The notes under the pieces: generated by a model
Told to the model about the DNA's origin: nothing
Databases searched by the model: none
The model's input: the letters and a program-made list of their open reading frames with translations, nothing else
Position numbers and translations under genes: made by a program
Shown here: positions 3,330 to 35,400 of the stretch, in pieces
Layout: the number at the start of each line of letters is the position of its first letter
Numbering within the stretch: the first letter of the stretch is position 1
Assembly (NCBI GenBank): GCA_030737835.1
Contig: JAUJYN010000066.1
Coordinates: 124,001 to 188,000 of the forward strand
Direction of reading: 5' to 3'
DNA: 64,000 nt
Source: Acorus gramineus
Taxonomy: Eukaryota > Streptophyta > Magnoliopsida > Acorales > Acoraceae

Positions 3330-3660
3330 AGTTTTTTTCTATTATTATTTATAATTAGGTAGGGAATAGGAATCCTACCACCAAATTTCATTAAAATAAA
3401 CTTGGGTACAATTCCAAGGAAAACCAAAAATCTGAAAAGAAGAGGCACCACAATTAGAAGAGAGTTCTACTAGTCGTAATCACAGAGCCTTACAATAGCC
3501 TCAAAAAATTTCTTTTACTCCTACAAAACTCACTCTCTTAGCCCACTGACAATGTGTAGCCCAGTCTTTGATGAATTAAACAGTGCTCTCCCAAATGTTT
3601 TCAAAATTTCCTTACCTCATTCCTCATCAACCCAATTTCCCAACTAGTGTTTTATGTATT
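3330..3660 (-). mobile_element. Possible LINE 3'-end remnant
   Basis: Read on the minus strand, a stretch resembling a LINE 3' UTR (ATTTGGTGG, then AT-rich sequence) ends in AATAATAATAGAAAAAAA at about 3330. No coding block or TSD was found, so this is tentative. Confidence 0.3.
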
Positions 3661-8404: not shown

Positions 8405-9552
8405 ACTAACATTCAAGAAGTTGTGCGCGAAGATCTACCTACATTTCTGGCCTATGCTCAAAGATGATTTAACTCGAGCACTCAATAATTTTTATAGTAG
8501 TGCTCGGTCGCCATTGTCATGGGGATCTACAAACATTGTTTTGATTCCCAAAGTCAAATGTCCGATGACGATAAAGGATTACCGTCCTATAAGTCTATGT
8601 GATACCAAGTATAAAATTTTGTCGAAGTTACTTGTTGGCTAGTTGAAGAAGGTATTACCGAATTTAATTGGAGAAGAACAAGGGGCTTTTGTTTCTCATA
8701 GACCAATCCATGGGCATTTGTTACTCATACAGGATTATGCACTCGATGCAAATCAGGAAAGGCTGGAATGCGCTGATGACCTTGAAGATCGATTTGGCAA
8801 GCGCATATAATTATGTGGAGTGAGATGCTCTTATCCAAATTCTTCATCTTTTTGGTTTCCTTGGGAGGTGGTGTCAATAGATATATGCTTGCATCTCACA
8901 GGTTCGAATGGCAATCCTTATAAATGGGGCTCCTATTTCTTGGATCAAACTGGGACGATGTCTTCGTCAGGGAGACCCATTGTCCCTGTACTTATTTACT
9001 TACTTTAGAGGCAGAGGTGTTGTCCTCATTGTTGAGAAGGGCTTGTAAAACGGGCAACATTATAGGTTTTCAAGCAGATTATAGATTAAATGGTCAGCTT
9101 ATTCCACCGGCTCTTACACATTTGATGTATCCGGATGATTTTATGATAGTGTTGTGTGGTTTCAGCTAGTCAAATTCCTAAGCCAAAAGAGATTTACCTG
9201 CTGTTTTGATTTAGAAAAGAATAAGGAAACTACATGTATCCCCAAATGTTCAAGTGTTTTTTTTTTTTGCTTGGTATGTTCAAATGTTTGTATGGCAGTT
9301 GCTGAGGGACAGACTTCCCAGTAGGGTCTTACTGGATTCTTTTGGCCTGCATCTGGATATATTATGCCCGTTATGTTGTAGGCAGTGGAAACACCAGTCC
9401 ACCTGTTTACTCGATGTCATTTCGCTGTAGAATTTTGGAGGAAAATTTCAGTTCGAATGCTTCCTCCTCAATCTATTTGGACAGCTGAAAGTTGGGTGGA
9501 TGTTTTCACATGTTCAAACTAGTTTTTTGCACTTAGTTTTTGGAATATTTGG

Positions 9553-11748: not shown

Positions 11749-11831
11749 GGGTAATTAACACTTTTAACCCCAAGAAAATAAATATTTACAAAAATAGCAC
11801 TGTCTCTCGAATATTTGCAAAAACTACCCCA
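11749..11831 (+). repeat. MULE left terminal inverted repeat
   Basis: Matches the complement of 30927-31009 over about 83 bp with roughly a dozen differences; both contain CTCGAATATTT near the inner end. The arms diverge beyond this point. Confidence 0.85.
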
Positions 11832-11842
11832 TTGAAGTTTAC

Positions 11843-11865
11843 ACTGGAGATAATCTGTCTCCAGT
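11843..11865. repeat. Subterminal hairpin, left MULE end
   Basis: ACTGGAGA and TCTCCAGT form a perfect 8-bp stem around a 7-base loop, 11 bases inside the TIR. The right end has larger relatives with the same ACTGGAGA/TCTCC words. Confidence 0.7.
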
Positions 11866-11935
11866 ATTACCCTGACAACATCAAAAAACAACAAATAACC
11901 TGTTATGCACAATAGAGAGTCTCCAAGTCGCAGCA

Positions 11936-11942
11936 TATATAA
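11936..11942 (+). promoter_or_regulatory. Probable TATA box of the MULE transposase gene
   Basis: TATATAA, followed by C-rich leader sequence, lies ~100 bp inside the left TIR and ~560 bp upstream of the first mudrA ATG. The assignment rests on position and motif only. Confidence 0.45.
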
Positions 11943-12498
11943 GCCCCGTCCCCGCTGTCAAGCTCTAAATTCACCTCCCTATTGTCCCTCTTTCACCCAC
12001 CCACTCGCTGCCAACCCTGAAAAATCATCAAAAACAACTCTGAATCCAAAGGTAAATATCAAAACCCTAAATGTTCTTGAATTTTATTATTTATTTATCA
12101 ATTGTTTTGATTTTATTGATTAAATTTGGGTTTTTTTTATCAAAACCCTAAATGTTGAATGTTGAATTTATTTATTTTTGAAATATTGATTGTATGATAT
12201 TTTGTTAAGTTAAATGTTAATTTTTTTAGGGTTTTTGGTTATTTTAAAATTTCCTATTTGTCAAAATAAACTTTTAAATCTTAAAAAAAATTTGAAAAAT
12301 TTGATTGTTATACATAAAAACTTTTTTAAAAATTCAATGGCCTCTTAATAAACATTAAAAAAAAATCAAAGGCTATTTAGGAAATATACTTTGTATGTGT
12401 TGCATGAATGTTATAGTGTTTAATATGTACATGTTGGATGGATTTTATTATTATGAATTTAAAAATATATTTACTAAGTTGAATAATTTATGGTTTAG

Positions 12499-15400
12499 AT
12501 GGTAAAGAAATCCAATGTCCCGTTAATGTATTCTTTTAACGGGAGGATTGTTCAACGTGAAGATACTTCATTTTATAAAGGTGGTACCAGGAAAACCACA
12601 ATCATAAATAAGAGGATCTCTTATGGCGATTTACTTCAAATGATGTACCATTTGACGAGAACCGATCCAAGTCATTACAAATTGTCCATAAGTGCTGTGC
12701 ATCCCACTCACGACGGAAAGAGTTTGGGTGCCCCTCTCGAAAATAATATGGGTGTGAAAGTGATGATAATGTTGTACCCAAAGCACGTGCATGTCATTCA
12801 ATTATGGTTAGATAAGGGAGAGATCATATAAAGAGGTCGTGGTGCGATGAATTACAATGCAGAAGATTCATATCCCTCCATTGTTCGTGATCCATACCAA
12901 CCTTCATCGTCGTCGTTCGTTCCGTGTACTTAAGAAGATTTGATTGATGCAACACCAACCAATGCCCATGGGAGTGTCAATATACCACACTTGTAAGTAT
13001 TGTGTATTTATAGGATGTTTTTTGTGGGTGTATTCATATGTGTAAGTATAGTGTGTTTCATTTATAGGTCCCTATTTCATGACATGGGTTAGAATGATAT
13101 TCGTGAGGGAATTGAAGTTAACAATGAAGAAGAAGATCAAGAAGGAGGAGAAGAAGAGGAAGTGAGAGAAGATACTGAAGAAGAGGATCGTGAAGATCAC
13201 TGGGTTGAAGGATCTGATACTGAGGAGGACCATGATGTGAGGAGAACTGCCATCCATGAATATAGTGTTCCTCAAATGTTTCCTACACGTGAGCTTATGG
13301 AGCAGGCGGTGGTAGAAAATGTCCGTCCATGCATTTATGAAATCGGATCTTCTTCGTGTAATGAACTTGAGGTTGGTCAGCTTTTCGCGAATAAGAAGTC
13401 ACTCATTAATGCTGTCCGAACCTGGAGCATAAAGAAATGTGTACAATGTCATGTGGTAAAATCAAATGCAGAAAAATACGCTGTTAAGTGCATAAATGAT
13501 AAATGTAATTGGAGATTATATGCGAGGAGGGTCGGTGGTTCAGAAATGTTCAAGATTTCCACTCTGAGAGTTCCTCATACATGCTTGGATCCTCTACTCA
13601 GTTCAAATCACAGACAATTTAGTTCTGATTATATCTCACAGCTGATTATGCCAACGATTCGTCATAATTTGAGAATCAGTCCTACTGAGATAATGGACAG
13701 GATACGTGCTGATCATCACTACACAATTTCATATTCAAAGGCACACCGTGCCAAATGGAAGGCTATGGAGAGGATATTTGGAAATTGGGAGGAGTCATAT
13801 GCTGAGTTGCCTCTATATGTTGATGCCCTGAAGAGGTCTAATCTAGGAACAAATGTGATCTTCGAAGGCCTTGTCATACAAGAGAATAACATGGGCATAC
13901 CGATTCGACAGTTTGAACGTGTTTATTGGGCACTCGGACCAGCCTTAGAGGCTTTCAACCATTGTCGTCCATTGGTTTGCATCGATGGAACACACCTGTA
14001 TGGAAAATATAAAGGAAATCTCCTGATAGCCACTGCTTGCGATGCAGAAAATGGTTTGCTTCCGATAGCCTTTGCTATAGTTGAATCTAAGAATAGAAGC
14101 AGTTGGACCTTCTTCCTTTGGAACTTGTTCTTTTCTATTGGTTGTATAAACAATGTGTGTCATATCTGATCGGCATTTGGACATCATAGCAGACATAAAA
14201 TCTATTGAGGAAGCAAACAATGTGACATGGCACCATCGTTTCTGTATGAGACACATGATAGACAACTTTAAAAAAATGTTAAATCAAAGGAGTTGAGTGA
14301 CCAGATTTGGAGGACTGCCACCTTGAAATGTCCAAATCAATTTGCTGACGAAATGCGAAAGATTCTTAGTGCCTCTCCGCAAGCTCGCACATGGCTTGAT
14401 CAAGTCCCTCCACATTGTTATATATGTGTCACTTTTTGCCTTCTGGTAACCATTGGAACATTCTGGCAGTTTTTCAGTTTTTTTCGTTTTTCGATCGAAA
14501 CCGCTAAAATTTTGGACTGTTAGCTATCATCCTGAGTTTGAGGACTCCGATTGAAAATCTAACTGCATATTATGTGTCCTGGTGCCATTCCAAGCCACTC
14601 ACGAAAATTTCATCGAATTCCGGTAACGTTTCAGAATTTCACAGTTTTGAAGCGTATCCGGGTTTTGACCGAGCGAAAAGTCATTGGGAGACTTGACTGT
14701 GATTTGGTCAACCCCCTTTGTTTTCTAGTGTGGATGGGTTGACCCAAGTCAAAGTGCCCTTAAACCTCACTTAAACCTCCCTAATCCTAGCTTAACCTAA
14801 TCTTTTTTTCACTAATTGAGGGTGTGAGTGTGTGTGGTGTGGGTGTGAGTATAAACAAATCCCACGACAACATATCCCCCACTATTCATCATCTTCTCCA
14901 AATTTTTCTCTCTCTCTCCCTCTCTTTAAAACCTCCATATGACCTAGCTAGGGTGCTTGAAACCAAAAACCCTAAGAAGAGAAAGGTTAGGTAAGGACCC
15001 GATCTACCTTCCGGTGGTCTCGGATTCGAGTTCCCACATGTGTGACCCCTTCTCATGCCCTCTTTTCTCCTCTGATTTCAGCCACTTTGAGGGCTGAAGG
15101 AGATCTTGGTGGTGGTGGTCCTTGAGGTGGTGTTTCGGTGCGTGAAGAGCACCCGTTCTTCCTCCCCTTCTCTTCCTCTCCTAGGGTAAGCTTCCTTTCC
15201 TTCCATTTCTTGTTTAGATGTATGTTAGGGTGTGTTTTTGGGAGTGAAATATGTGCTTGGTGGTTTGGGAGTGGTTGTGGTGGCTGTTGGTGGCGGGGTG
15301 GTTGAGCTCGGCTCCAGTGCATGCGGGCAGCGGCGCGCGCAGGCGGGCAGGCGCGCTGGGCGCGTGCTGTCGGGCTCGCTGGGCGCGTGCGGTCGGGCGG

Positions 15401-18147
15401 GCTGGGCGCAGTGCGCGGCGTGCGCGTGGAGCGCTGCGCGGGGGCGCGTGGCGAGCGGGTGGTGTGCGGGTGTTGCGCAGGGGGGGCGCAGTGCGCGCAG
15501 GGCGAGCGGGGAGTGCGTGCGGGGCACTGCGCTGGGGCGCAGTGCGGGCGGGTGCGCGTGCGGGGCGCTGCGCTGGGGCGCAGTGCGCGCGGGTGCACCC
15601 GGAGCTAGACGAGCGGGTGGTGCGCGCGGGGTGCTGCGTTGGGGCGCAGGGCGTGCGGGTGTGCGCGCAGGTTGCTGCGCTGGGGCGCAGTGAGCGCGCG
15701 GTGCACCCTGGGGGCTCGACAGCTTGTCCGGGCATGTGGGCAGGGGCTCGGCAGTGCGTCTGGGCGCGCGGGATGGGGCGCGGCTGTGCGCCTGGGTCGG
15801 GTGGCCATGCAAACGGCTGCCCGGGGGTTCGGGAGTGAGTCGGGGTGCTCGGACTCGCGTGCGTACAGGCTGTATGTACGTTTGTCCGAGTGTCGTGTAT
15901 TTTTAATGTATTTTTGTATGTATTTGTGCATTTTACTCACCAAGTTGATTACCCTGTCTTGCAGATCTTAAGGACGGTCGCGCGACGACCCGGTTATTGG
16001 TGAGTGGTACAATCCAACCCAGTAGGGAGGCGCTATATGCACTTGGATGTATACCGTTCTCCCCTGGGGCACCATGGTTAATATTAACTTGTGTATGTAA
16101 TCTATGCAAGCATGATTAATATGTAGTATGCATGCTACCCTAGACTGTGTATGTTAGGGACTTGCACCCTTAGGATATGTGTAAGAGCCATGCATCCTGT
16201 CACCATGTTCTCATGCTAGGAAGCCTCGACCTATGCATGTGTCCTACTAGTTTAATTTATTAAATTAAATGTGAACTTATAGTATTTTAAGCATGCCTTA
16301 GGGAATATTATAAGGGGCCTTGCGAGGTCAACATTGAGACCCGGGCTAGGGTACTCCGTGTTCCTTGTTTGGTTGTCGGGATGTCCTATATCGGGACCTC
16401 ATGGTGCCCTCCCAAGGTTTCTTTTCCTGATAATATTATAATATATGTTTCCCCGCATCTGGGTTATGCGCCCTGGAGGAATTCTGAAGAATTCAATGAC
16501 ATTTATAAGTTGAGATCGGTGTCGACGGATCCGAGTGGATCGTATGCGTATGGATAGGCTGTTTTTGTTCCCTTCGTTGGATCCGTGTAGAGACTGCCCC
16601 AGCGTTAGAAAGGCCGTCCCGTGAGAGGGCTCCCATCAGTAGGTACCTCCTGATTTTGGATTCGGACTGTGCTGAAGTGTGGGAGTAGGCCAAGCGGCCT
16701 ACGAAGTGGAGGAGAGACTATCGGTGGACCAAGGGAGATTAACAGCCTAGTCAGTCCCAATATCCTATGTCACCTATTGAGGGGTGAGGGTGAGGGTGTG
16801 GTGGGTCGGCGATGTAGCGACCCACTGGATTGTGTAGTTCCTGCCACTTTGAGGCTTGATTAATTATTTGTGGTTAATATAAATTGTGATGCATGGGTTG
16901 TGCTATTCACTGAGCGTGTGGCTCACCCCTCGCATATATATTTTTCTCCAGTTATCACTGAGTCGGACTTGAAGGAGGAGCTCCCCGAGAGACTTCATCA
17001 GTAGCGGAGCAGCGCCACGTCCCGCGAGTATTAGAGGCCATCAGCATCCTTTCTTTTGATTGTATGTATATATTTCCGTGCTTGGGCACCGTTTGTATAT
17101 TATTTGGATGTATGTGTGTATATTGGCTCTCACGGGACATTTGATTATGTATCGAGTTTGTAGTATGTTTTTGAATTACAGACTCAGTCTTTTAGCTTCC
17201 GCTATCTGTGTATATATCATGTCAGCCTTGCTTTCGTCTGTGTTGTCATTTTAGTTGTTGTTTAGAGTATGTTATTGATCTCCTGTATAGACTGCTGATA
17301 TCATGTATACACTTGCCGCGTCCCCGGGACGGCCGCCCTGGGGCGTGACACACATACATGGGCTCTTTGTTATGACGATGGTCGTCGTCATGGCATGATG
17401 ACCATCAATAGAGCAGAAAGCATGAACTCGGTCTTGAAAGGTGTAAGAGGATTGCCAGTCACTGTCATATTACAACAGACATTCATACGGGTGTCAGAGT
17501 TTTGTACGAGGCGTGAGTCGGGCGAGAGCATGTCAGGTGAACATGTGCCATATATGTAGCAGCGTTTGGAGAGAACTGCACATGATGCAAGGGCGATGCT
17601 AGTAAGAAGGCTTGATAGGTCAGAATTCAATGTCCAAGACAAGAATGCGGTTATGTACACTGTCTTCTTGTATTCTGACCATGCAGATTGTCAATGTCAT
17701 GTTCTGAAGTTGTTTCACTATCCATGTGCACATGTCATAGCGGCTTGCGAGTATGCTCATATTAGTCCTGGAAGATACGTGTCACATTGGCTTTCCTCAG
17801 AGTCATATAGACACACTTATGAACCACCCCGATTCCACTCCGTTGATGATATAAGTCGTTGACCGATTCCTACGGAAAACGATCCTATCTTCATCCCACC
17901 GAATATTAGGAGACAAGCGGGTTGCCCTGTATCAACTCGCCGACGTATGCATATGGACTCCAGGGATCCAAGTCTGAGATATACATGTTCAATATGTCAT
18001 GAGAAAGGCCACAGAAAAAATAAATGTCCACGTAGAAATACAAATGCTGGTATAAATGTTAAATATGATTATGATATTACGATGAATGTTAAATTGTTTG
18101 AGTATATATTAATTTGTGTTCAAATTACAGGTGATGGACATACGTGA
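12499..18147 (+). pseudogene. mudrA-like MULE transposase, interrupted by a solo LTR
   Basis: The first exon starts at ATG 12499 (MVKKSNVPLMYSFNGRIVQR) with a stop at ~12829. A likely intron runs 12993-13067. The main frame at 13162-14169 begins with an acidic region, then the MULE N-terminal zinc-binding domain (CVQCHVV, CINDKCNWRLYARR) and the DDE core: CIDGTHLYGKYKG near 13975-14015, and SDRHLDII at ~14164 after a frameshift. A solo LTR (14416-17350) splits the gene at ...DQVPPH; the frame resumes TWALCYDDGRRHGMM. Downstream are a SWIM zinc finger of form CxCx9CxH (17689-17748) and a CCHC knuckle (17986-18027). An intron at 18050-18130 would give a final NAGDGHT and stop at 18147. About five disabling changes are visible besides the LTR. 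Confidence 0.85.
14416..17350. mobile_element. Solo LTR A, Ty3/gypsy (Tekay/Del-like)
   Basis: Starts TGTTATATATGTGTCAC and ends GGGGCGTGACA, with a 5-bp TSD CACAT at 14411-14415 and 17351-17355. It is 2935 bp with no internal domain, so a solo LTR left by recombination. A CpG-dense core (about 15300-15840) gives rise to long but meaningless open frames on both strands. The lineage is inferred from LTR length and from the pol remnant in related element C. Confidence 0.9.
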
Positions 18148-20694
18148 GTGGCATGGACCCGTCGTGGATGATTTGCTGTATTTTCAGGGATCTCATAGAT
18201 CTCATCATGGATTTCAGGGAAAGGTATATCCATTAGAATAATTTTATCTCTTCTGTTATTATTGTGGTCAAAATTATTTTATTTAACAAACTGATTAAAT
18301 TTGACACAGACCGATACCATGAAGTTCACGATCCACATGGTGGCATTGCGTCACTGGGTCATGGATCCACGCATCGAGCCATACGTGAGGGCATCCAAAT
18401 TCTACTATTTGACACATATGGGATATACAAGATCAGATCATCGACTATTACAAGCACTCGTGAAGAGATGGAGACCAGAAACCAACACATTTCATCTGTG
18501 ACATGGCGAGATGACTGTCACACTTAAGGATGTTGTTGTTCTTATTGGGCTTCCCATTGATGGAAAGCCGTGACCGGTATCACAGACTGTGATGATTGGG
18601 GACACGTTTGTGAGGATCTGTTAGGTGTTGGCCCCCCTGCAGAGAAGATCAAGGGTGGTAGAATTTATCTCTCGTGGCTTAAAGAAACTTTCAGCATTGT
18701 ACCAGATATTGATTTGGACGACGACATCCTCCAGCAGTATGCACGTGCATATATCTTATTTGTTCTTGGATCCACCATCTTCACTGATGGCACAGAAAAA
18801 GATACATGCATGCTATCTTTATCTACTTAGAGATTTAGATGATGCTGGCCGATATTCCTGGGGTACAGCTGTGTTGGCCCACATGTATAGAGCGTTGTAC
18901 AAGGGTAGTGTGCTTGGAGAGAGATCGTCCGCAGGATCTCATGGATTTTATTCGCTGCTACAGGTAATATGAAAACTCCAAGTTTCCTTTGTAAAACTTG
19001 TTCTTTTTTATCAGTGTTACTCGTATTTTATTTTAGATATGGTCGTGGGAGAGATTACACGTGGGACGACCAGACTTACATGACTCAGATTTTGTGCTTG
19101 GAGATAGACCTTTGGGGGCAAGGTAATACATATTTTTCATCTTCTATTATCAATTCATGGATGATCAGATTTCACTAAATTCCTCACTATCAGGTGGAAG
19201 GTGACTCAGAGGTTTGATGAAAATTCACGAGTTCTGATATACTATAGGGCACAACTAGACTACCAGCTTGAGTCACAGGTGATTCAAACTTTATTATTAT
19301 ATCGCACACACAATATATACTCATTAAGATTGTGATATTGTGATACTAATTATAATTTTGATTTTTTGTAGGTTATCTGGCAGTCTTATGTTGGGACATA
19401 TGCTGTATTACCATATGCTTGTAGGGATCATATGGAGTTGTGGTTGGCTAGGGTCCCACTCATTTGCTTTGATATCGTGGAGATGCACGTGCCCAATTGA
19501 GTCACATGTCAATTTGGGGTGCATCAAGACATACCACCTACTGTAGACGTCATCGACCAGGTGAACAGACGAGGTAGATAGGATACCAATTGGATGGTAT
19601 ATCACTAAACTTTTATCGAACGTTGGGACCAACGCTTGGATCACATCCACCAGTTGCATCATACCCGAAGTTCGAGGAGATATATGGAGTGGTATTGGGA
19701 GAAAACAGTCAGACATATCACACCTCCACCACCCCCACACCACCCTCCAGACTCTGTCGCACAACATTCGGTAATTTCTTAAACATATGTTACATTTTTA
19801 TAAAGTGATAAATGATTTTAAAATCACTTATTATAATGAAACTTCTGATAAACAGGAGGGAGTTACACAGAATATTAGTGAGGTGCTTGAAGGGGGGTTA
19901 GTGTTGTACCCCAATTATGATGAGTGGGGACGTATAATTGTTGTGGCACGTGATTATGCAGAGGTGATGATGGGGAAAAGGGAACAGCCATCGAGTACCT
20001 TTAGTGCAACTACAGATGATGATGATTACTCCAGAAATGTCATAGATGACAGTGCATTTGGGCCAAGAGCTGATACTGAATTCACAATTGATGAGTTCTT
20101 TGGTGATGTTCGACTGGAGCCAGAATTGGATGAGCAGCCACCACAACCAGCTCCAGTTTCAAATAAAGCTCCAGAGATGACACTCCAGACGTATGTTTGT
20201 GGACCACGCATGTTGTGCCTGTGTCATTTGGAGCGCTCTGTTTGAAGATTTTGGGTACATAATTTTTTTTTGTAAGTTATGTATTTCCAATTTTCCATTT
20301 GGATTTGATTTTGTAAAAATCCAAGATGAAGAGATTTAATTCTGATTTTGTTATGAGATGTCCAGTTTTGAGTTGGCTTTCGCACAGAGGTGGAATTAGA
20401 TCAACTGGATTCTTGTAGTACAAGTTATGGGTATTCTTCCAAGTGTACCCCGGGATAGAAATTCTGGCAGCAGCCCTGTTCCATGTTTGTCTCTAAATTC
20501 GGAATAGCTGGAGAGGTTATTTGTTCATGTCATAAACATGAAAGTTGTAGATAATCTTCTTAGCTTTCCATCGGTTTTGGAATTGAGCCATTCGGAGCTA
20601 TATCGAGGAAGTTATGGCTGTTCCAGTGAAGCTTGCGCTGAATTTCTAGTCGGAGGGCGACTTAGTAAATTTTCCTTAAGATATTTGATAAATA

Positions 20695-20726
<32 letters not shown>

Positions 20727-23700
20727 CCAATGTTGTCGACAACATTTCTGGTCCCTCTCTTTCTCTCTTTTCCTTGCCCACCAAGTGTTTGATGGAGGGC
20801 CTCAAAGAGGAGGAGAAGGTGGAGGAGGAAGTGGAGGTGGGTTGTGTTGTTGTTGCTTGTTTCTTCCCTTCTCTCAAGCTCTCTTTGCATGATCCCCCCC
20901 CCCCTGTTTTGCTGCCATAGAGGGCTGAAGAGGAGGCTGAGTGGTGGTGGTGGTGGTTCCGGGTGGCGGCGTTTCGGTGCGCGAAGGGCCCCGAACCTCC
21001 CCCTTTCTTTTCCCTCCCAAGGTGAGCTCCTCCCCTCCTTTTCTTGGTTTTCTTGGCTTGAGGGGTTGGTTGGGAGGTCATGCATATTGGGTAGGTGTGT
21101 TAGGGAGTGTGTGAGGGGTTGGGATGGGTGAAAATGAGCTTAGAGTGGGCTGGGCGCGCGCTGGGCGCGGTCTGCGCGCGTGCGCGCGCAGGCAGGCGCA
21201 GTCAGGCGCGCAGGCGTGAGCGCGCGGGTGCTGGCGCGAGCGGGGGTGCGTGCGGGTGCGCGCGGGCGCGCACGGCCGTGCGCGCGAGCGTGCGCGCGCG
21301 CGGGCAGGGCGCCTGGGCATGTGCCTGGGTGCTGGGCAGGGCACCTGGGAACTGCGCCTGGGTGCTGGGCAGGGCGCCTGGGCATGGTGCTGGGGACCAG
21401 TGCGCGCGGTGCTGGGGGCCAGTGCGTGCGCGTGCTGGGGCGTGCGTGCAGTGCGCGCGGGGCGCGCTGGGCTGGACGCGCGCGAGCGTGCGCGTGCGTG
21501 CGGTAGTGCGTCGGGGCGCGCGGGTAGGCGCGCGGCAGTGCGCCGATGGTGCCGGGGTGTGTGCGTGCGTGCGCATCCGTGCGTGCACATGTGGGGGGCG
21601 CTGTGCGCGTAGGGCGAGCAGGCGGTGCGAGCGGGGAATGTGTGCGGGGCGCTGCGCTGGGGCGCAGTGCGTGCGGGTGCAGGCGCGGTGCGCGCGGGTG
21701 CACCCTGGGGCTGGACGCGCGGGCGTGCGCGTGCATGCACCCGAGCGTGCGGCGTGTCCGGGCGTGCGGGCAGGGGCTCGGCCGTGCGTCTGGGCGTGCG
21801 GGCTGGGGCGCATCTATGCGCCTGGGTCGGGTGGCCGTGCGTACGGTTGCCCGGGGGTTCGGGAGTGAGTCGGGTGCTCGGGCTCGCGTGCGTACAAGCC
21901 GTATGTACGCTTGTCCGAGTGTTGAGTATTTTAGAGTATTTGTGGATTTATTTGTGTGTTTTACTCACCGTATTGATTACCTTGTCTTGCAGATCTTGAC
22001 GGACGGTCGCGCGACGACCCGACTTCCGGTGAGTGGGACAATCGAACCCAGTAGAGAGGCGTTATACGCATTTGGGCGTATACCGACCTCTCCTGGGGCA
22101 CCATGGATTTATATTAACCTGTTATAATGTGTTTTCATGCGAGCATGATTTAAATGTAGAAGGCATGCTACCCTAGACTTTGCGTGTTAGGGACTTGCAC
22201 CCTTAGGATATGTGTATGAGCCATGCATCATGTCCCCCTGTTCTCATGCTAGGAAGCCTTGGCCTATGCATGTGTCCTACTAGTTTTATTTATTAAATTA
22301 AATGCTAGTGTATGATAAACTGCATGCCTTAGATGATATTATAGGGAGGAGCCTTGCGAGGTCAACACTGAGACCCGGGTTAGGGTACTCCGTGTTCCTT
22401 GTTTGGTTGTCTGGGTGTCCTGTATCGGGAACTCACGCTGCCCTCCCAAGGTTTCTTGTCCCAATAGTATTATAAGAAATGTTATACCAAATTATATGAT
22501 TATTAGCATATTTAGTGAATATTATAGGGGAGGGGCCTCGCGAGGCCAGCGGTGAGACCCGGGCTAGGGTACTCCGTGTTCCTTGTTTGGTTGTCGGGGT
22601 GTCCTATATCGGGAACTCACGCTGCCCTCCCAAGTTTCTTTCCCCCAATGATATTCCACCCTTGCTAATTATTGTGTATGTTCCCCGCATATTGGTTATG
22701 CGCCTTGGAGGAATTCAGAACATTAGAGTTGTAGAGATGTGTTGTCGGCGGATCCGAGTGGATCATATGCGTATGGATAGGCTGTTCTGTTTCCCTTCGT
22801 TGGATCCGGTAGAGGCTGCCCTAGCGTTAGAAAGGCCGTCCCTTCCAAGGGTTCCCATCAGTAGGCGCCTCCTGATTTTGGTTTCGGACTGTGCTGAAGT
22901 TGTGGGTGAAAGCCAAGCGGCCTACGGAGTGGAGGAGAGACTATCGGTGGACCAAGGGTGACCAACAGCCTAGTCAGTCCCAAAATCCTATGTCACCCGT
23001 GGTAGGGTGAGGGTGAGGGTGTAGTGGGTTGGCGATGAGCGACTGTTATATTTATGTCACTTTTAACCTGCTGGTAACCGTTGGAGCGTTCTGGCAGTTT
23101 TTCAATTTTTTTCGATTTTCGATCGGAACCGCTAATTTTTGGACTGTTAGCTATCGTCCTGAGTTAGAGGACTCTGATTGGAAATCTAACTGCATATTTG
23201 GTGTCCTGGTGCCATTTTAGGCCTCTCACGAAAATTTCATCGAATTTCGGTAACGTTTCCAAAATTTCACAGTTTCAGGGCATATCCGGGTATTTTAAGT
23301 GACTCGCTATATAAATGGAATCTAAAATTAGATTGGCACTATTCATATTCTTCCTCCTTGAGCTCTCTCTCTCCCCTTCTCCATTTTTCTTGGTTTTGAG
23401 CCCCTTCGAGGGCTTGAAACAAAAAACCTAAAGCATAGGAAGTGTCGGTGCTTTCAAATTTGAATTCCGGCAAGTTTTGCCCCTCCGCCCACCCTCTCTT
23501 CTTCCCTGATTTGAGCCATTTCGGTGGTGGAGGTAGATCCGGGCGTTGGAAGCCTTTTGGGAGAGGTTTCGGTGCGCGGAGAGCAACCGGACTTCCCTTC
23601 CTCCCCTTGGTAAGCCTCTTTTCTCTCTTTTTCTTGCATAGATGTATGTTAGGAGGCTGGGAATGAGGTTGGGTGGTGGTCGGTGGCGGTGGGTGGCCGT

Positions 23701-26359
23701 CGGGGGGCTATGGTGCTGGTCGGAGGCCTTGGAGTGGCCGGTGGAGGGAGCTAGGCTCACCGGGCAGGTTGGGTGGCTGTCCCGGGAGGGTTGGCAGCAC
23801 AGCAGGCGCAGCAGGCGTGCAGCGGCAGGGCACGCGCGCGCGGGCGTGCGCTCGGGTTGGCGCTGGGCGTGTAGGGCGTACATGGTAGACTGGCAGGGCT
23901 AGCTCGGGCAGGATGGCTGGGCTGGGCGCGCGGGCAGGTCGGGCTGGCAGGCTGGGCGCGCAGGCGAGCAAGGCAGGAGGTGCTCGGGCATCAGGCGAGC
24001 AGTGCCGGGCGTGCAGGCGAACGGTGCTCGGGCCACTCGGCGATGCGCGCAGGCAGGCAGCGCGGGCAGCAGCACGGGTAGGCTGGCAGACGCGTTGGGC
24101 GCGTCCTGCCAGGCACGCTGGGCACGTGTTGCGCGGGCGTGCGCGTGGGCGCTGGGTGAGGGTCCCGGGTGCTGGGCGCTAAGCGCTGGGAGCTGGTCGC
24201 GGATACCGGGTGTGCTGGGCGAGGGTGCTGAGCGATGGGTGCAGGGGCGCTGGGCACCGCAAAGGTGCATGCGCGTGGGGCGCTGGGCAGAGGCAGCCGT
24301 GCGCGCGGTGAGGAGGGCAGAGGCGGAGGCGTGCTGGGCGCAGGCGTGCGCGCGGCGTAGTGGGTGCGAGCGGGTGGTGCGCGCGGGTAGAGGCTGGTAG
24401 GTGCGCGCGGAGTGCGCGCGGATAGGGGCTGGAGGTGCGCACGGGGTGAGGCGCTGCGCGCGGGGCGTGCGGGGTGCTCGCGGGCCAGCGCGGGGCGTGC
24501 GGGGTGTGCGCGGGCGGCTGCACTGGGGCGTAGGGGGCGCGCGGTGCACCAGGGAGGTTCGGCGGCGTGTCCAGGCGGCGGGCAGGGGCCCAGCGGGGCG
24601 CGGGGTGCGTGGGCTGAGGCGCGGCGGTGCACCCGGGTGGTCGGGTGGCCGTGCGGGTCGTGCGCACGTTTGCCCGAGTGTTGGGTGTTTGATTTTGGGT
24701 TTTGTGTATTTTTGAGTGTTTAGCAGTATTTGAGGATTTTACTCATCAGTTGATGCACTGTCTTGCAGATCTCGACGAACGGTCGCGCGTCGACCCGATC
24801 TTCGGTGAGTGGGACGATCCAACCCAGTAGGGAGGCGTTACATGCACTTAAGCGTGTACCGCCCTCCCCTAGGGCACCATAGTAGATATTAACCTGTTTA
24901 ATATTGAAAGCTATGTAAGCATGATAATCTGTAGTATGCATGCCACCCTAGATTTGTATGCTAGGGACTTATACCCTTAGGACCGTGTAAGAGCCATGCA
25001 CCCTGTTATCATGTTTCCATGCTAGGAAAGCCCCGACCGATGCATGTTCCCATTTAGTTTATTTATTTAAATAAAATGCGAGCATGTGATTATTAGCCTG
25101 TTTTAGTGAATATTATAGGGGAGGGGCCTCGCGAGGACAGCGGTGAGACCCGGGCTAGGGTACTCCGTGTTCCTTGTTTGGTTGTCGGGATGTCCTATAT
25201 CGGGACCTCACGCTGCCCTCCCAAGGATTCTTTCCCCGTTAATATTCCAACCTTGTTATAACTATTATGCATGTTCCCCGCATCTTGGTTATGCGCCCTG
25301 GAGGAATTCTGAGGAATTCAGGACATTAGAGTTGTTAGGATGCGATGGATGGTCTAAGACTCTCCCAAAGTCCCAATATGTCTCCTGATGGGAGTGAGGG
25401 TGTGGATGAGACAAAGACGCGTCGCCTCATGACCCAATTGTTGTTCGACCGTTCCCACGGATGTTGGGTCCGGCCTTGTGATGGAGGTTGAAGGCTATCG
25501 GTGGGAGATTATCTAGATATAGATGATCAGGTGAGATTGGTAACGTTCTATAATAGTGATGTCTTCTTCTAGTGTTCCTTTTCTGGTTTAAGGGGCAGTG
25601 TGAGGTCAGCGTTGAGACCCGAGCTAGGGTACTTCGTGTTCCTTGTTTGGTTGTCGGGGTATCCTATATTGGGACCTCATGCTGCTCTCCCAAGGTTTCT
25701 TTTCCCAGTCAAGGGATACCATGGAAGCATCAGCTGGGGATGGATCGAGTGCGAGTTTGGATGGAGCTTATGGCCTTTCTGGGCTATGTGATTGTGGTGA
25801 AGGTATATCTGTGGACCCGGGTAAGACGCTTGCTATGTCGAATTGGCGTAGGCCGTCGAACCCCGCAAGGATTCGGAGCTTCCCGAGTTTGGCGGGTTAT
25901 TGCAGGAGGTTTGACGAGGGACTCTCGAAGATAGCCGTTCCTCTTAACTGCCTTACTCGGAAGGATGTCCGGTTCGAGTGGTCCCCGTCTTGCGAGGAGA
26001 GCTTCCTGGAGTTTTATCGGAGGCTCACCTCAGCGCCAATTCTTACCTCTCCATCTTGGAGTGGTGGGTTCGCAGTTGGGTAAAGGTGTGTCCACGATCC
26101 TGCTCACGTCGTCCCGTTCAAGCCGCTCGTCTCTGAGCCGGACAGTCATTCGTGGAGCAGTCGATTGAGATCATGGACCGCCGCGTGAGGAGGCTCTGCA
26201 CCAAGACCGTCCAGTTGGTCGAGGTGCGATGGCAGCACCGTTCCGGTGTCGAGGACACTTGGGAGCTCAAGGATGCCAGGTGTGACGCGTATCCGCATCT
26301 TTTCCCCTCCTAGATGTTTTTACATATTTTGAGGATAAAATTTCCTAAGGGGGGAAGAA

Positions 26360-29300
26360 TGTTATATATGTGTCACTTTTAACCTGCTGGTAACCGTTGG
26401 AGCGTTCTGGCAGTTTTTCAATTTTTTTCGATTTTTGATCGGAACCGCTAATTTTTGGACTGTTAGCTATCGTCCTGAGTTAGAGGACTCCGATTGGAAA
26501 TCTAACTGCATATTTGGTGTCCTGGTGCCATTTTAGGCCTCTCACGAAAATTTCATCAAATTCCGGTAACGTTTCTGAAATTTCACAGTTTCACGGCGTA
26601 TCCGGGTATTTTAAGTGACTTGCTATATAAGTGAAATCTAATTTTAGCTTGGCACTATTCATCATCTCCCTCCTTGAGCTCTCTCTCTCCCCTTCTCCAT
26701 TTTTCTTGATTTTGAGCCCCTTGGAGGGCTTGAAACAAAAAACCTAAAGCATGTTCCGATCTACACCCCGGTGCTTTCAAATTCGAATTCCGACGAGTTT
26801 GGCCCCTCCATCCCCCCTCTTTTCTTCCCTGATTTGAGCCATTTCAGAGGTGGGATTAGATCCGGGCGTTGGAAGCCTTTTGGGAGAGGTTTCGGTGCGC
26901 GGAGAGCAACCGGACTTCCCTTCTCCCCTTGGTAAGCCTCTTTTTCTCTCTTTTTCTTGGATAGATGTATGTTAGGAGGGTGGGAATGAGGTTGGGTGGT
27001 GGTCGGCGGCGGTGGGTGGCCGTCAGGGGGCTGTGGTGGTGGTCAGAGGCCTTGGAGTGGCCGGTGGAGGGAGCTAGGCTGACCGGGCAGGTTGGGTGGC
27101 TGTCCCGGGAGGGTTGGCAGCACAGCAGGCGCAGCAGGCGTGCAGCGGCAGGGCGCGCGCGCGCGGGCGCTTGCTCGGGTTGGACTTTGGGCGTGCTGGG
27201 TGCTGGGCGTGCAGGGCGTACAGGGTAGACTAGCAGGGCTAGCTCGGGCAGGATGGCTGGGCTGGGCGCGCGGGCAGGCCGGGCTGGCAGGCTGGGCGCG
27301 CAGGCGAGCAAGGCAGGAGGTGCTCGGGCATCAGGCGAGCAGGCGAACGGTGCTCGGGCCACTCGGTGATGCGCGCAGGCAGGCAGCGCGGGCAGCAGCG
27401 CGGGTAGGCTGGCAGACGCGTTGGGCGCGTGCTGCTAGGCGCGCTGGGCACGTGTTGCGCGGGCGTGCGCGTGGGCGTTGGGTGAGGGTCCCGGGTGCTG
27501 GGCGCTGAGCGCTGGGAGCTGGTCGCGGATACCAGGTGTGCTGGGCGAGGGTGCTGAGCGCTGGGCGCAGGGGCGCTGGGCACCGCAGAGGTGCATGCGC
27601 GCGGGGCGCTGGGCAGAGGCAGGCGTGCGCGCGGTGAGGAGGGCAGAGGCGGAGGCGTGCTGGGCGCAGGTGTGCGCGCGGTGCAGTGGGTGCGAGCGGG
27701 TGGTGCGCGCGTGGTGCGCGCGGGTAGAGGCTGGTAGGTGCGCGCGGTGCAGTGGGTGCGAGCGGGTGGTGCGCGCGTGGTGCGCGCGGGTAGAGGCTGG
27801 TAGGTGCGCGCGAAGTGCGCGCGGATAGGGGCTGGAGGTGCGAGCGGGGCGTGCGGGGTGCTCGCGGGCCAGCGCGGGGCATGCGGGGTGTGCGCGGGCG
27901 GCTGCGCTGGGGCGCAGGGGGCGCGCGGTGCACCAGGGAGGTTCGGCGGCGTGTCCAGGCGGCGGGCAGGGGCCCGGCGGGGCGCAGGGTGCGTGGGCTG
28001 AGGCGCGGCGGTGCACCCGGGCGGTCGGGTGGCCGTGCGGGTGGTTGCCGGAGTGCTCGGGCTAGCGTGCGTGCGGGTCGTATGCACGTTTGCCCGAGTG
28101 TTGGGTGTTTGATTTTGGGTTTTGTGTATTTTTGAGTGTTTAGCAGTATTTGAGGATTTTACTCATCAGTTGATGCACTGTCTTGCAGATCTCGGCGGAC
28201 GGTCGCGCGTCGACCCGATCTTCGGTGAGTGGGACGATCCAACCCAGTAGGGAGGCGTTACATGCACTTAAGCGTGTACCGTCCTCCCCTGGGGCACCAT
28301 AGTAAATATTAACCTGTTTAATATGAAAAGCTATGTAAGCATGATAATCTGTAGTATGCATGCCACCCTAGATTTGTATGCTAGGGACTGGTACCCTTAG
28401 GACCCGTATAAGAACCATGCACCCTGTTATCATGTTTCCATGCTAGGAAAGCCCCGACCGATGCATGTTCCCATTTAGTTTAATTCATTTAAATAAAATG
28501 CGAGCATGTGATTATTAGCCTGTTTTAGTGAATATCATAGGGGAGGGGCCTCGCGAGGACAGCGGTGAGACCTGGGCTAGGGTACTCTGTGTTCCTTGTT
28601 TGGTTGTCGGGATATCCTATATCAGGACCTCACGCTGCCCTCCCAAGGATTCTTTCCCCGTTAATATTCCAACCTTGTTATAACTATTATGCATATTCCC
28701 CACATCTTGGTTATGCGCCCTAGAGGAATTCTGAGGAATTCAAGACATTAGAGTTGTTAGGATGCGATGGATGGGCTGTTCTGTTCCCTTCGTTGGATCC
28801 TTTAGAGACTACCCCGGCGTTGGAAAGGTCGTCCTGTGCAGGGGCTCCCATCAGTAGGCGCCTCCTGATCTGGTAGAAGGAATGTGCTGAATGTGGGAGT
28901 GGCCAAACGACCTACGGAGTGGGGAGAGACTATCGGTGGACCAAGGGTGACCAACAGCCTAGTCAGTCCCAAGAGCCTAGGTCACCTATTTGAGGGTGAG
29001 GGTGAGGGTATGGTGGGCCGGCGATGTGGCGACCCACTGGATTGTAACTCCCAATATCCTTGGTCACCCAGTGAGGGTGAGGGTGAGGGTGTAGCGGGTG
29101 GCGGTAGCGACCCACTGGTTTTGTATAATTAGTCCCAATATCCTTGGTCACCCTTTGAGGGTGAGGGTGAGGGTGTAGTAGGTTGGCGGTAGCGACCCAC
29201 TGGTTTGTGGAGTTGTTGCCATTTTTGTGGCTTGAGTAATGTGTTTGTGGATTAATGATAACTGGTTTTGGTTAATATAAATTGTGATGCATGGGTCGTG

Positions 29301-29737
29301 CTGTTCACTGAGCGTGTGGCTCACCCCTCGCATAATATTTTTCTCCAGTGTCATCTGAGTCGGATCTGGAGGAGGAGCTCCCCGAGGGACTTCATCAGTA
29401 GCGGAGTAGCGCCACGTCCCGCGAGTATCAGAGGCTATCAGCATCCCTTGTGCGTGTATGTATTATATTCCGTGCTTGGGCACGCGTTTGTGTTGTATTT
29501 GGATGTCTTTGTATATATTGCCTCTCACAGGACATATGATTACGTATCGAGTCTGTAGTATGTTTTGATTACAGATTCAGTCTTTTTAGCTTCCGCATTT
29601 GCTGTGTATATCATGTCAGCCCTGCTTTGTCTGTGTTGTCATTTTAGCTATTGTGTGTGTATGTTATTGAACTCTTGTTACTGATATCATATATACACTT
29701 GCCGCGTCCCGGGGTCGGTCGGCCCTGGGGCGTGACA
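26360..29737 (+). repeat. 3' LTR of element C
   Basis: TGTTATATATGTGTCAC to GGGGCGTGACA, 3378 bp, directly after the purine tract AAGGGGGGAAGAA. It is longer than LTR A mainly through extra tandem units at 28966-29215 and repeats in the GC-rich core (two copies of a ~75-bp block near 27680-27810). Confidence 0.85.
28966..29215. repeat. ~80-bp minisatellite inside the LTR, three units
   Basis: Each unit reads approximately CCCAATATCCTTGGTCACC, then GTGAGGGTGAGGGTG, then GCGACCCACTGG. LTR A has one unit (about 16755-16835), and LTR B has two, one on each side of the insertion point of element C. Confidence 0.8.
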
Positions 29738-30778
29738 GCGACCCACTGGATTGTGGTAGGATGATTATCAGTCCCAATAGCCTATGTCACCCATTGATGG
29801 GTGAGGGTGAGGGTGTGGTGGTTCGGCGATGTACGAACCACTGGATTATGTTGATATGCCACTTAGAGGATGGATAAATAACTGAATTGTGGTCAATATT
29901 GTCTGTGATGCATGGGTTGTGCTATTCACTGAGCGTGTGGCTCACCACTCGCATAATTATTATTCTCCAGTATTATCTGAGCCGGACTTGAAGGAGGAGC
30001 TCCCCGAGGGATTTCATCAGTAGCGGAGTAGCGCTACGTCCCGCGAGTGCCAGAGGCTATCAGCACTCCTTTTTTTTTATTGTATGCATTATATTCCGTG
30101 CTTGGGCATGCAGTTGTATTTCATTTGGATGTCTTTGTATATATTGGCTCTCACAGGACAGATGATTGTGTATCGAGTCTGTAGTATGTTTTAATTACAG
30201 ATTCAGTCTTTCGCTTCCGCATTTGGTGTATATATCATGTCAGCCTCTTTGTTGTCTGTGTGTCATTCTAGTTGCTTGTTTATGGTATATTATTGACCTT
30301 CTGTGTAGATTCTGATATTATATATACACTTGCCGCGTCCCGGGGACGCCCGGGGCATGACAACGCAGGATTTGGTGCACTTCTGCTACTGCCAGTCAGA
30401 GATCAGGTGAATCGTTTACCACTTCGGCTCAATCAGCTGCGCCATCTTTGACAGCCACAGACGTACCCTATTCATTAGCACCTCCTGCTCCAAGGAAAGA
30501 AAAAAAGAAAGGGTTTATGAAGTTTTTTGGATGACTGTATATATGGGACTTAAGATATGTTTAGATATATGAATTTTCATGCACAAACAGTAATGAAGTG
30601 ATTGTAATTTATAGAACTTGTGTTTTATTTCATTTAAGTTGTTTTATTTTATTCAAGCAGAATTTTCATACATTTTTATATATGTTCAAGCAGAATTATA
30701 CACTATATTTAAGGCAGGACTATGTTTGAACAAAAATAAAAAGGGAAAAAAATTTCTAAGGCAATTGAACTGGAGACT

Positions 30779-30806
30779 GGAGACGGCATATATATATGCC
30801 GTCTCC
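30779..30806. repeat. Perfect 28-bp palindrome near the MULE right end
   Basis: The half-site is GGAGACGGCATATA followed by its exact complement, so the whole is self-complementary. It lies ~120 bp inside the right TIR and downstream of the PMD stop codon. Confidence 0.85.
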
Positions 30807-30838
30807 CCTTGAAAATTCCTCAGAGAGGAAAATGCAAA

Positions 30839-30868
30839 GGAGACGGTATATATATATGTGCCGTCTCC
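30839..30868. repeat. Second, imperfect GGAGACGG palindrome
   Basis: GGAGACGG and CCGTCTCC flank an AT repeat spacer, and AGT follows. With its flank it mirrors the smaller left-end hairpin ACTGGAGA...TCTCCAGT at 11843-11865. Confidence 0.75.
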
Positions 30869-30926
30869 AGTATAAACATTAAAAAAAAACGGCCAGCGCT
30901 GACGTGGTAGCGCTGACCAGGTCAAC

Positions 30927-31009
30927 GGGGCTAGTTTTTATAAATATTCGAGGGACAGGGTTATTTTTGCAAATATTCATTTTCTTAGGGTTAAAAGTGC
31001 TAATTACCC
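30927..31009 (-). repeat. MULE right terminal inverted repeat
   Basis: Its complement begins GGGTAATTAGCACTTTTAAC and pairs with 11749-11831. The flank is a run of eight A (31010-31017), as at the left end. Confidence 0.85.
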
Positions 31010-32497: not shown

Positions 32498-35400
32498 CAA
32501 CCAATTAACTAATATCACCAATAAAAACAACAAAAAAATCATAATTTAAATAACACTAATCCCACCATCACTATTTGAGACATTCAACAGTCTCTCTGTC
32601 AACCACCACTATTTAAACTATTCGACAGTCTCTCTATCAATCACTATTTGAGACATTCGACAGTCTCCTTGTCAACCACCACTATTTAAATCATTCGACA
32701 GTCTCCCTGTCAACCATTATTTAAATCATTCGACAAACTCTTTGTCAACCTTCTTTTAAAACTTTCGACAGTTGGTTTGTCGACCTGAGAAAACAATTTA
32801 AATTTGTTCATCTTTGTTGTTATTCGCATTTGATGTTAGTTAATTGGTTGGGCTTTGTATAGAGAATATTTGGGTTGAACAAATCACATGTGTATTGTTT
32901 GGATTTAGAGATGTGATGGATTTTGGGTGCGATTATGTGTATGGTTTGAGGAATTGATTGTTGCATTAAGTATTTCAATTTCCTTTGTTGTTTGAATAAT
33001 GCGTGTTGTTGAATTTAGGGTTATTAGTGTTTAAGAATGGTAACCTCTTGGTCTTGAATTGAATATGATTTTGTTAGATTTCTTAGGTGCATGACTAACT
33101 TCATTATTTTTTTCTCTAGTAATGATAGTTTTGATTTGTCTAGTATTTAATTTAACTGAAATGCCTGGTTGTGATACCTTTGGAGTTCACCTTATTGCAA
33201 TTATGTTCGTGCTTTTTTTAATGTGTTAAGAGTTGAGTGAATATATTGTAAATGTTGAATGAAATGTCAATGTGAATGTGATTGTGAATGCGTTTATATT
33301 TTAATGTATATTGAATGTTGAATGTGGTCGAATGTGTCTCAGGTCGACAGAACAACTGTCGAATATTTTAAAGGAAGGTTGATAGAGCGTTTGTCAAATA
33401 TTTTAAATGGTGGTTGACAGACCTACTGTCCATTGTTCTTGTTAGAATGAGAGAATGAAATAATGGGAATCCTTGTATTCCATTTAGGGTTTAATCCCTT
33501 TATATACAAATATACAAAAGTTACACGTGTAATACACTATGCCTATAATGACATAACATATATAATCTAACAGCCTCCCTCAAACTCACGGTGGATCATA
33601 CAAAGTAAGTTTGCGAAGGAGAAACTGAAATCAAGGAATTGGATGTGACTTCGTGAAGAAATCAGCAAGTTGTTCGGCAGAGAAAATATGCGGAAGCGAT
33701 AGTGTCTCTGGAAGAAAGTGCTGATGAACGAAGTGACAATCGATCACAATGTGTTTGGTCCTCTCATGAAAAACTGGATTGCTGGCAATCTGAATAGTAG
33801 AGTGGTTATCACAATGAAGAGAAGTAGGACCAGTCATAGTAACTCCTAGATCCACCAAGAGACGTCTAAGATGAACAATCTCCTTGGTAGTGATGGCCAT
33901 GGCTCGATACTCAGCCTCATTGTTGGATAGTGAAACAACCTCCTGCTTCTTGCTGCGCCAAGAAATAATAGAATCTCCCAGAAATATGCAGAACCCAGTG
34001 GTGGAGAGTCTAATGGCCAGATCTCCATCCCAATCAGTATCAGTGTAGGCACTGAGAACCAAAGTCGAAGAGGACGACAGATAGATCGATCTGGTGATAG
34101 TACCGCGTAAATATCTGAGAATACGCATAAGAGCACCATAATGCACTGATCGAGGAGCCGAGACAAACTGACTAACAATACTGATGGCATGAGCAATGTC
34201 AGGTTTGGTGATGCAAAGATACACAAGCTGACCAACGATCTGTCTATATCGAGTTGGGTCTGGGAGGAGCTCACCATCTGTAGGACAAAGTTTTGCATGA
34301 AGCTCAAGAGGGGTATCTGAGAGGGCAGCGTGCTCAAGAATGTTAGCCGTATACTTCTGTTGAGAAAGTAGAATCCCATGATCACTCTGTGTAATCTCGA
34401 GACCAAGGAAGTAGCGAAGAGTACCGAGATCTTTCATCTGAAATTGTCGACTGAGGTGATTCTTGACCATAGTAATATCGGCGAAGTCATTGCCAGTGAT
34501 AATCATGTCATCAACATATAGAAGAAGGATAACTCGGTCCTGCGATGAGGATCGCACAAACATAGAGTGGTCCTAGAGGCTCTCGAGAAAATCGACTGCT
34601 AGAATAACGCTGTGAAAACGCTCAAACCAGGCATGAGGTGCTTGTTTGAGACCGTATATAGCCTGTCAAAGATGACAAACATGCTGAGGAGGAGTGTTGA
34701 GACCTGGAGGTGGCTGCATATAAACAATCTTAGATAAATCACCGTGAAGAAAAGCATTCTTCACGTCCATCTGAAAGAGAGGCCAGCGACAAACAGCTGC
34801 AACAGCAAGAAGGGTGTGAATAGTAGTCATCTGAGCAACGGGAGCAAAGGTCTCCTCATAGTCAATATCATACTCCTATGAGAAACCTCTGGCAACAAGA
34901 CGAGTCTTATGTCTTTCAATGGATCCATCAGGGCGATGCTTGATCTTGAAGATCCATTTGCAGCTGATAGGTGTAACGCCAACTGGAAGGGGAACAACAT
35001 CCCAAGTCTGTGTCTGCTCAAATGCCTAAAACTCCTCAACCATGGCCTGCTACCACTCAGGGTACTCGACTGCCTCTCGATAGGATTGTGGTGAGATAAG
35101 CCTGGAACTGTGGAGAATAGGTACTCACGGATGCAAAGTCAAATCGGTCAAGTGGTCCATATTCAAAACTGAAGCGGACAGGTGGATGACGCTCACGCTG
35201 AGGGTAGCGAGTCGAGGGACGAGGATCCATATCAGAGGGAGGTGTGTCAGCCGTGGAAGACAGAGTATCAGTGGAGTCATCAATAAGAGGAGCTAGAGGA
35301 GACACAATAGGAGGAGAACTGGGAGGACCATGAGAGTTGGATGTAAGAGAGCCAAGAGGAGACTCAGGGAGAGCAGAAGTAGGAGCGGGCTCAAGCACAA

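Follow-up and report, generated by a model that had tools for sequence, protein, structure and literature searches.

A gene for a plant mobile domain (PMD) protein is very probably an integral, selected gene of a family of Mutator-like elements (MULEs) in Acorus gramineus, in which it lies directly behind the transposase gene mudrA. The window analysed here is a stretch of 64,000 nucleotides (assembly GCA_030737835.1, contig JAUJYN010000066.1, positions 124,001 to 188,000 of the forward strand), and it holds one copy of the family, 19.3 kb long from one terminal inverted repeat (TIR) to the other, at 11749-31009. We take the PMD gene to be a selected part of the element and not a chance capture because of its co-occurrence with mudrA, the ratio of nonsynonymous to synonymous substitution rates (dN/dS) between two subfamilies, I and II, and the conservation of its exons over its introns.

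Related copies, referred to below by L numbers, were collected from the window's own genome (398.6 Mb; G000, with the window on contig C104). The genome searches score the best candidates, and all copy numbers are lower bounds. With the window mudrA as the query, at least 114 matches were obtained, itself included, and the exact TIR marked at least 183 ends. The undisturbed length of the element is 6138-6494 bp in eight copies (L029, L032, L034, L035, L036, L040, L041 and L045). Among 15 TIR-bounded copies, six were flanked by exact 9-bp target repeats, two by exact 8-bp repeats and three by 9-bp repeats with one mismatch; none was found for the remaining four. The family is a Mutator-like element both by its transposase, with MuDR DNA-binding, MULE (DDE) and SWIM domains, and by its TIRs with a target duplication, for which MULEs have a range of 8-11 bp.

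The copy L034 gives the plan of an undisturbed element. Its two-exon mudrA gene, open over 862 aa, is followed after 77 nt by a six-exon PMD gene, the start codon of which stands 3 nt past a 3' splice site, and another 530 bp lead to the right end. The mudrA protein matches MULE (2.3e-14), DBD_Tnp_Mut (2e-10) and SWIM (0.00093; 19.1 bits, just below the 19.6 of Pfam), and the PMD frame carries a single shift, which lies in exon 2. The joined PMD exons of L035 match the Pfam PMD family with 310.5 bits (E 1.9e-92, cut-off 34.9). In the DNA of L034, mudrA and PMD are separate reading frames, and a start codon belonging to PMD itself is present in L034, in the window copy and in five open copies. 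The original prediction, read from the letters of the window, had the PMD gene following mudrA at once, which agrees with the 77 nt that separate the PMD ATG from the mudrA stop in L034. Ten open reading frames of the window element and the mudrA and PMD genes of L034 and L035 contained no further protein family above the Pfam cut-off, a result that includes no direct sequence comparison with VANC. A sequence search found no relative of PMD with a solved structure.

How regularly do the two genes occur together? A PMD piece of the family was located downstream of mudrA on the same strand for 96 of the 114 matches within 6 kb, for 97 within 10 kb and for 99 within 15 kb, and the spacing was 1198-1299 bp in 66 of those 99. 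The count of 96 drew on the best 150 of 158 exon-2 matches and on 34 of 150 further PMD rows, which had been chosen for nearness to mudrA matches. Because those 34 were picked near mudrA, the orientation control is biased for exon 5, and the exon-2 list is the unbiased control. By that list alone, PMD lay downstream on the same strand in 87 of 114 cases and upstream on the same strand in one, while neither position was ever occupied on the opposite strand. The best 150 other matches to the Pfam MULE domain, none of them overlapping the 114, had no exon-2 piece within 6 kb in any arrangement (0/150), and 17 other PMD pieces were within 10 kb of none of them. Thus the co-occurrence which the original prediction had proposed as a check is present in this one genome, with 96 of 114 family matches against 0 of 150 other MULE matches. 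The same prediction would have given way to a chance capture if relatives with intact mudrA consistently lacked PMD. No such pattern emerged among the copies read: two with a long open mudrA and no listed PMD, L049 and L050, were read over their 3' half, and both retain PMD exon 1 and parts of exons 2 and 6 around an internal deletion.

Two observations stand apart from this count. A family mudrA match at G000:C8:15565858-15566889 lies in a listed open frame of 3828 aa, with no listed PMD nearby. Further multi-copy PMD genes form two groups, with open frames of 675-677 aa and 396-484 aa (G000: C4:5170414, C43:4836384, C43:3887296, C1:22051998, C2:9068280, C2:1380713, C5:25507457, C5:27247541 and C113:14523); none of the listed MULE matches is within 10 kb of either group, and they are possibly borne by Gypsy elements.

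Open six-exon PMD frames of 607-612 aa were found in 5 of 18 copies, namely L015, L035 and L036 of subfamily I and L042 and L043 of subfamily II; L012, L013 and L018, which overlap L036, L037 and L039, were excluded from the PMD counts. The splice borders were all GT/AG in 13 of the 18 PMD extracts; in the other five, one or two 3' sites deviate, for the most part that of exon 6. The copies L015, L036 and L042 are strictly intact, with an open frame and every internal GT/AG site. To compare the rates of substitution, dN/dS was calculated pairwise by the Nei-Gojobori method with codons containing gaps, stops or shifted frames excluded, and L029, which has a shifted frame, was kept in the comparison of subfamilies with its bad codons dropped. 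For nine I-II pairs over 603-606 codons, the PMD dN/dS was 0.20-0.25 at a dS of 0.36-0.46, and the highest upper bootstrap limit was 0.32. The strictly intact pairs gave 0.20 (L036-L042) and 0.22 (L015-L042). Differences between the PMD genes of L035 and L042 fell mainly on the third codon position, with 55, 42 and 132 at positions 1, 2 and 3, respectively, and between the subfamilies the PMD exons are far more conserved than the introns. For mudrA, pairs with a dS above 0.02 had a dN/dS of 0.29-0.51, or of 0.60-0.93 for L028 and L040, where the divergence is low. Within subfamily I, the PMD genes of L034 and L036 are separated in exons 1-4 by 10 changes, all of them synonymous, and the PMD genes of L034 and L044 differ with a dN of 0.003 and a dS of 0.050. 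Our reading of these patterns is that selection acts on PMD while the gene sits in the element. The purifying selection that the original prediction had named as a second check, dN/dS below 1, is seen between the subfamilies, and its suggestion of a second element-encoded protein gains support from both the co-occurrence and the dN/dS within one genome.

The mudrA and PMD portions do not always share the same history. Identity between L029 and L034 is 96-97% in mudrA, intron included, but 83-94% in the PMD exons and 50-79% in the PMD introns. For this pair dS rises from 0.064 in mudrA to 0.367 in exons 1-4 of PMD (Fisher p 1.6e-15), and the non-coding parts have 6 differences in 148 positions of the mudrA intron and spacer versus 122 in 342 positions of the PMD introns (p 1e-15). 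The step in divergence becomes visible where PMD exon 1 ends; the dS of exon 1 is already 0.23, on few sites, and the border is therefore placed between the mudrA end and PMD intron 1. A higher mutation rate in the 3' half was weighed as the cause of the step and set aside, since L034 and L044 show no such step: PMD has no excess in this pair (dS 0.079 in mudrA vs 0.050 in PMD, p 0.25) and is therefore not simply faster mutating. A second, smaller step separates L034 and L036, with a dS of 0.000 in mudrA and 0.050 in PMD (p 2.5e-6). Trees of 22 copies, built from 702 nt of mudrA and from 290 nt of PMD exon 2, both group subfamily II, but the branch leading to it is not equally long in the two. 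PMD modules of differing age thus sit behind nearly identical mudrA genes, a pattern which suggests that recombination between element lineages probably swaps the 3' PMD module.

A short palindrome, mostly of the form GGAGACGG-N(4-14)-CCGTC(T/C)CC, recurs near both ends of the element. Half-sites GGAGACGG were counted in the end regions, taken as the outer 450 and 600 bp: each of 11 related elements has 6-16 of them and the window copy has 4. None of the 12 elements has one in its middle part, and shuffled ends yielded 0-1. In L034 the palindrome arrays, which have AT-rich centres, occupy 3387-3555 and 9302-9518. The number of palindromes differs among the 12 elements: L035 has half-sites alone and no complete palindrome, and in the window copy half-sites survive at the right end only. 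The transposase, or a complex containing PMD, may bind at these end arrays.

Then, what could the PMD gene do for the element? Its protein would probably be translated from RNAs begun farther upstream, which run through mudrA or arise inside it, and not from a separate intergenic promoter, because the PMD ATG stands so close behind both the 3' splice site and the mudrA stop (3 nt and 77 nt, respectively). The protein may counter host silencing, most simply by standing in as a decoy or competing partner in the MAIN/MAIL1-PP7L silencing complex of the host, and the promoter and ends of the element would thereby stay accessible. This counter-silencing role, drawn by analogy from the host proteins, is a tentative proposal to which we give somewhat less than an even chance. 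Bolder still is the idea that PMD is an exchangeable counter-silencing cassette, whose different versions pass between lineages as 3' modules, with the end palindromes as the address of a transposase-PMD complex; this we consider unlikely as yet. Taken together, a selected PMD gene, module exchange, a shared transcript and counter-silencing make up our best explanation of the family, and we hold it, as a whole, with slight confidence on the positive side.

Other explanations share part of this evidence. Maize MURB is a transposition accessory, and the PMD protein might likewise be a MURB-like accessory or a cofactor of the transposase, which might for instance join it at the subterminal palindromes and have no part in silencing. 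The usual position of PMD behind mudrA, the confinement of the palindrome arrays to the ends and a basic C-terminal tail, RKAKKKG, in five of five open-frame PMD proteins are all consistent with such a function. However, Pfam finds only PMD in the protein, and the host proteins MAIN and MAIL1 act in silencing and gene expression (PMC5418596, PMC7156037). An accessory role appears rather unlikely to us. Alternatively, PMD could be spliced onto mudrA to give a fusion protein, as published for grass and Amborella MULEs (PMC5418596), and a sequence resembling a 5' splice site at the mudrA end (CTG|GTAATT) does face the 3' site before the PMD start. Joining the two, however, reads NAGDGHP and then a stop, out of the PMD frame, and fusion through these visible splice sites was rejected on this ground; other sites were not systematically searched. 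The PMD start codon noted above in L034, the window copy and the five open copies also argues against a fusion, which we regard as improbable.

The origin of the PMD gene raises two further alternatives. MULEs are known to capture host genes and the PMD frames of the window copy are broken, as would be expected if a fragment of a host PMD gene had been picked up by this one copy, Pack-MULE-like and without function. Such a chance capture was our first idea and was dropped as highly improbable on the co-occurrence, the selection and the PMD remnants: PMD follows mudrA on the same strand in 96 of 114 matches, its dN/dS is 0.20-0.25, open six-exon frames exist in both subfamilies, and both PMD-less copies read retain remnants of the gene. 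A Pack-MULE identity does not fit either, as the family has a transposase and a PMD gene that is complete and under selection. If, instead, two different host PMD genes had each been captured separately, with the low dN/dS left over from host selection before capture, this would account for a subfamily II PMD that is far more diverged than its mudrA and for the sharp border between them. Both types, however, have in common the exon number, the exon borders, the junction with mudrA and the right-end palindromes, and the changes among subfamily I PMD genes are nearly all synonymous (10:0 for L034-L036; dN 0.003 and dS 0.050 for L034-L044). We judge this origin to be very unlikely, marginally more so than a fusion protein.

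Several points weigh against the view of PMD as a selected, exchangeable and co-transcribed gene of the element. The two genes are not open together in any of the 10 copies extracted over all exons. An open mudrA is present in 2 of 22 extracts (L034 and L045), which represent 21 elements because L020 and L044 are one and the same, and each of the two has a shifted PMD frame; conversely, in L035 and L036 it is mudrA that is broken, with PMD open. One or two exons of L035 and L043 have an altered 3' splice site, and these two copies are open only with the exon borders as drawn in this analysis. Taken alone, the dN/dS between the subfamilies could reflect selection in two separately captured host genes, and the counts within subfamily I, which oppose two captures, rest on few changes. 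In one of 17 mudrA-PMD pairs, L034-L040, the contrast is weakly reversed, with mudrA the more diverged (p 0.024, uncorrected). Fifteen of the 114 mudrA matches have no listed PMD within 15 kb: two that were read, twelve unread and the window copy, which does hold a PMD gene and went unlisted because that gene is too decayed. At least some copies with both TIRs lack much of PMD or mudrA, and not every copy therefore needs a PMD of its own.

The window copy has the same plan as its relatives (Table 1). A search for the TIR pattern with up to three mismatches gave exactly two sites in the window; each is a perfect match and faces inward (11749-11768, +; 30990-31009, -), and two matches occurred by chance in 0 of 100 shuffled windows. 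The alignment of the two ends spans about 82 bp, and AAAAAAAA flanks each end outside. The target repeat of this copy is 8 bp long and ambiguous, as the element sits in a run of A. The TIR-bounded element of the original prediction is thereby confirmed, with an exact 20-mer at both ends; the interval it gave, 12499-30532, is bounded by the start codon of mudrA and the end of PMD, and the element proper is 11749-31009. In mudrA, Pfam recognises DBD_Tnp_Mut (3.6e-11), MULE/DDE (6.1e-07) and SWIM (1.8e-05, above the cut-off), the MULE/DDE match covering the first half only because an insert splits the gene. Of the transposase parts that had been predicted, the DDE (its first half, by Pfam) and SWIM parts hold, and the zinc knuckle is weak at 0.012, under the Pfam cut-off; the letters of the zinc-knuckle (CCHC) pattern, CX2CX4HX4C, are present. 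PMD (PF10536) was recognised in one window exon with 6.5e-10 and 39.2 bits against a curated cut-off of 34.9. Comparison with a related copy located all six PMD exons on the mudrA strand, as expected for the multi-exon gene foreseen from the window, and the last exon piece, at 30534, stops 475 bp short of the element end, near the right TIR as had been proposed.

Table 1. Parts of the MULE copy in the window (window coordinates)
Feature	Position	Strand	Remarks
left TIR	11749..11830	+	exact 20-mer; ~82-bp alignment with right end
mudrA exon 1	12499..12992	+	90% identity to L034 exon 1; stop at 12829-12831 closes the frame
mudrA exon 2, part 1	13068..14415	+	MuDR DNA-binding domain and first half of DDE (MULE); open frame to 14169
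LTR (long terminal repeat)-like insertion in mudrA	14416..17350	.	TGTT...GACA, 5-bp repeat CACAT; GC-rich repeats
mudrA exon 2, part 2	17351..18052	+	remaining DDE region, SWIM, weak CCHC knuckle
PMD exon 1	18134..18223	+	start codon 3 nt past 3' splice site
PMD exon 2	18310..18963	+	plant mobile domain core; 654 nt vs 657 in open copies; frames shifted
PMD exon 3	19037..19122	+	comparison with related copy
PMD exon 4	19194..19278	+	comparison with related copy
PMD exon 5	19372..19770	+	comparison with related copy
PMD exon 6, part 1	19856..20210	+	comparison with related copy
LTR-like insertion(s) in PMD exon 6	20211..30362	.	10.2 kb; TGTT...GACA, 5-bp repeat ACGCA
PMD exon 6, final part to stop codon	30363..30534	+	comparison with related copy
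two GGAGACGG...CCGTCTCC palindromes, right subterminal array	30779..30868	.	motif count
right TIR	30928..31009	-	exact 20-mer; ~82-bp alignment with left end

The window copy is dead, a point absent from the original prediction, with two inserts and shifted frames in both genes. An insert of 2.9 kb cuts the DDE domain of mudrA and one of 10.2 kb cuts the last PMD exon. Inside and between the two inserts, stretches of 230-2440 bp are 70-90% alike, and our guess from their appearance is that they are LTR retroelements or solo LTRs of a retroelement family with long LTRs. The interiors of both carry very GC-rich tandem repeats. Elsewhere in the window, the minus strand carries Copia-type remains at 33634-36652 (gag_pre-integrs, rve, SH3_retrovirus and RVT_2) and, at 45637-46050, an open reading frame with a RINGv domain, perhaps a host gene exon. 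A scan of the window against Rfam at the curated thresholds gave no match.

PMD proteins are poorly understood plant silencing factors that transposons carry as well. The first description of the domain came with a rice MULE, and Gypsy elements carry it too (PMC5418596, PMC8616336, PMC9289625), and in tea, PMD genes yield phased small RNAs (PMC10673657), another possible reason for an element-borne PMD to matter in silencing. Published work thus already covers MULE-borne PMD and a proposed use of it against silencing, and the present family is a further case with an inferred function. Papers judged by title and the beginning of the abstract contained no report of selection on, or module exchange of, a MULE-borne PMD, a survey with subscription journals and preprints outside its scope and no proof of absence. 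The family is suited to testing. A single genome holds a large number of similar copies, both subfamilies include open PMD genes, and the element-borne gene bears the mark of selection; there are also natural deletions that removed most of PMD, and the ends offer candidate sites for binding. Published speculation on element-borne PMD becomes assayable through it.

The nearest known systems share some features with the family and differ from it in others. Dupeyron et al. (2019, PMC6446971) found PMD in several plant MULE groups, often in antisense. The groups of their Table 1 (VANDAL, MuDR-9_OS, MULE-Monocots, MDR, MUDRAVI2 and MUDR) resemble the present family in having a MULE transposase, SWIM and/or CCHC and a PMD motif or open reading frame, together with TIRs in most and a 9-bp target duplication in several. 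PMD is antisense in most MUDR and often in MUDRAVI2 elements, whereas here it lies on the same strand behind mudrA; the available part of that paper contains no selection test on PMD. In grasses and Amborella, MULEs also carry a PMD, there of the MAIN/MAIL clade (PMD-C), and an anti-silencing use has been proposed (Ikeda et al. 2017, PMC5418596), but there it is fused to the transposase, in contrast to the two reading frames here. Arabidopsis MAIN and MAIL1, which act together with PP7L (PMC7156037), have the plant mobile domain in common with the family but are host genes and not element-borne; if the idea of an exchangeable counter-silencing cassette is true, such host silencing proteins and the element PMDs would be two sides of one contest. 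VANDAL21 is also a MULE with an additional protein gene and arrays of short motifs in its non-coding parts, to which VANC21 binds (Hosaka et al. 2017, PMC5735166). The anti-silencing activity of VANC has been tested, and the protein binds its motif; in the present family the motif is a palindrome confined to the end regions, with the transposase or a PMD-containing complex as candidate binders. Should the cassette idea hold, the PMD cassette would be comparable to VANC but made from the host's own silencing domain.

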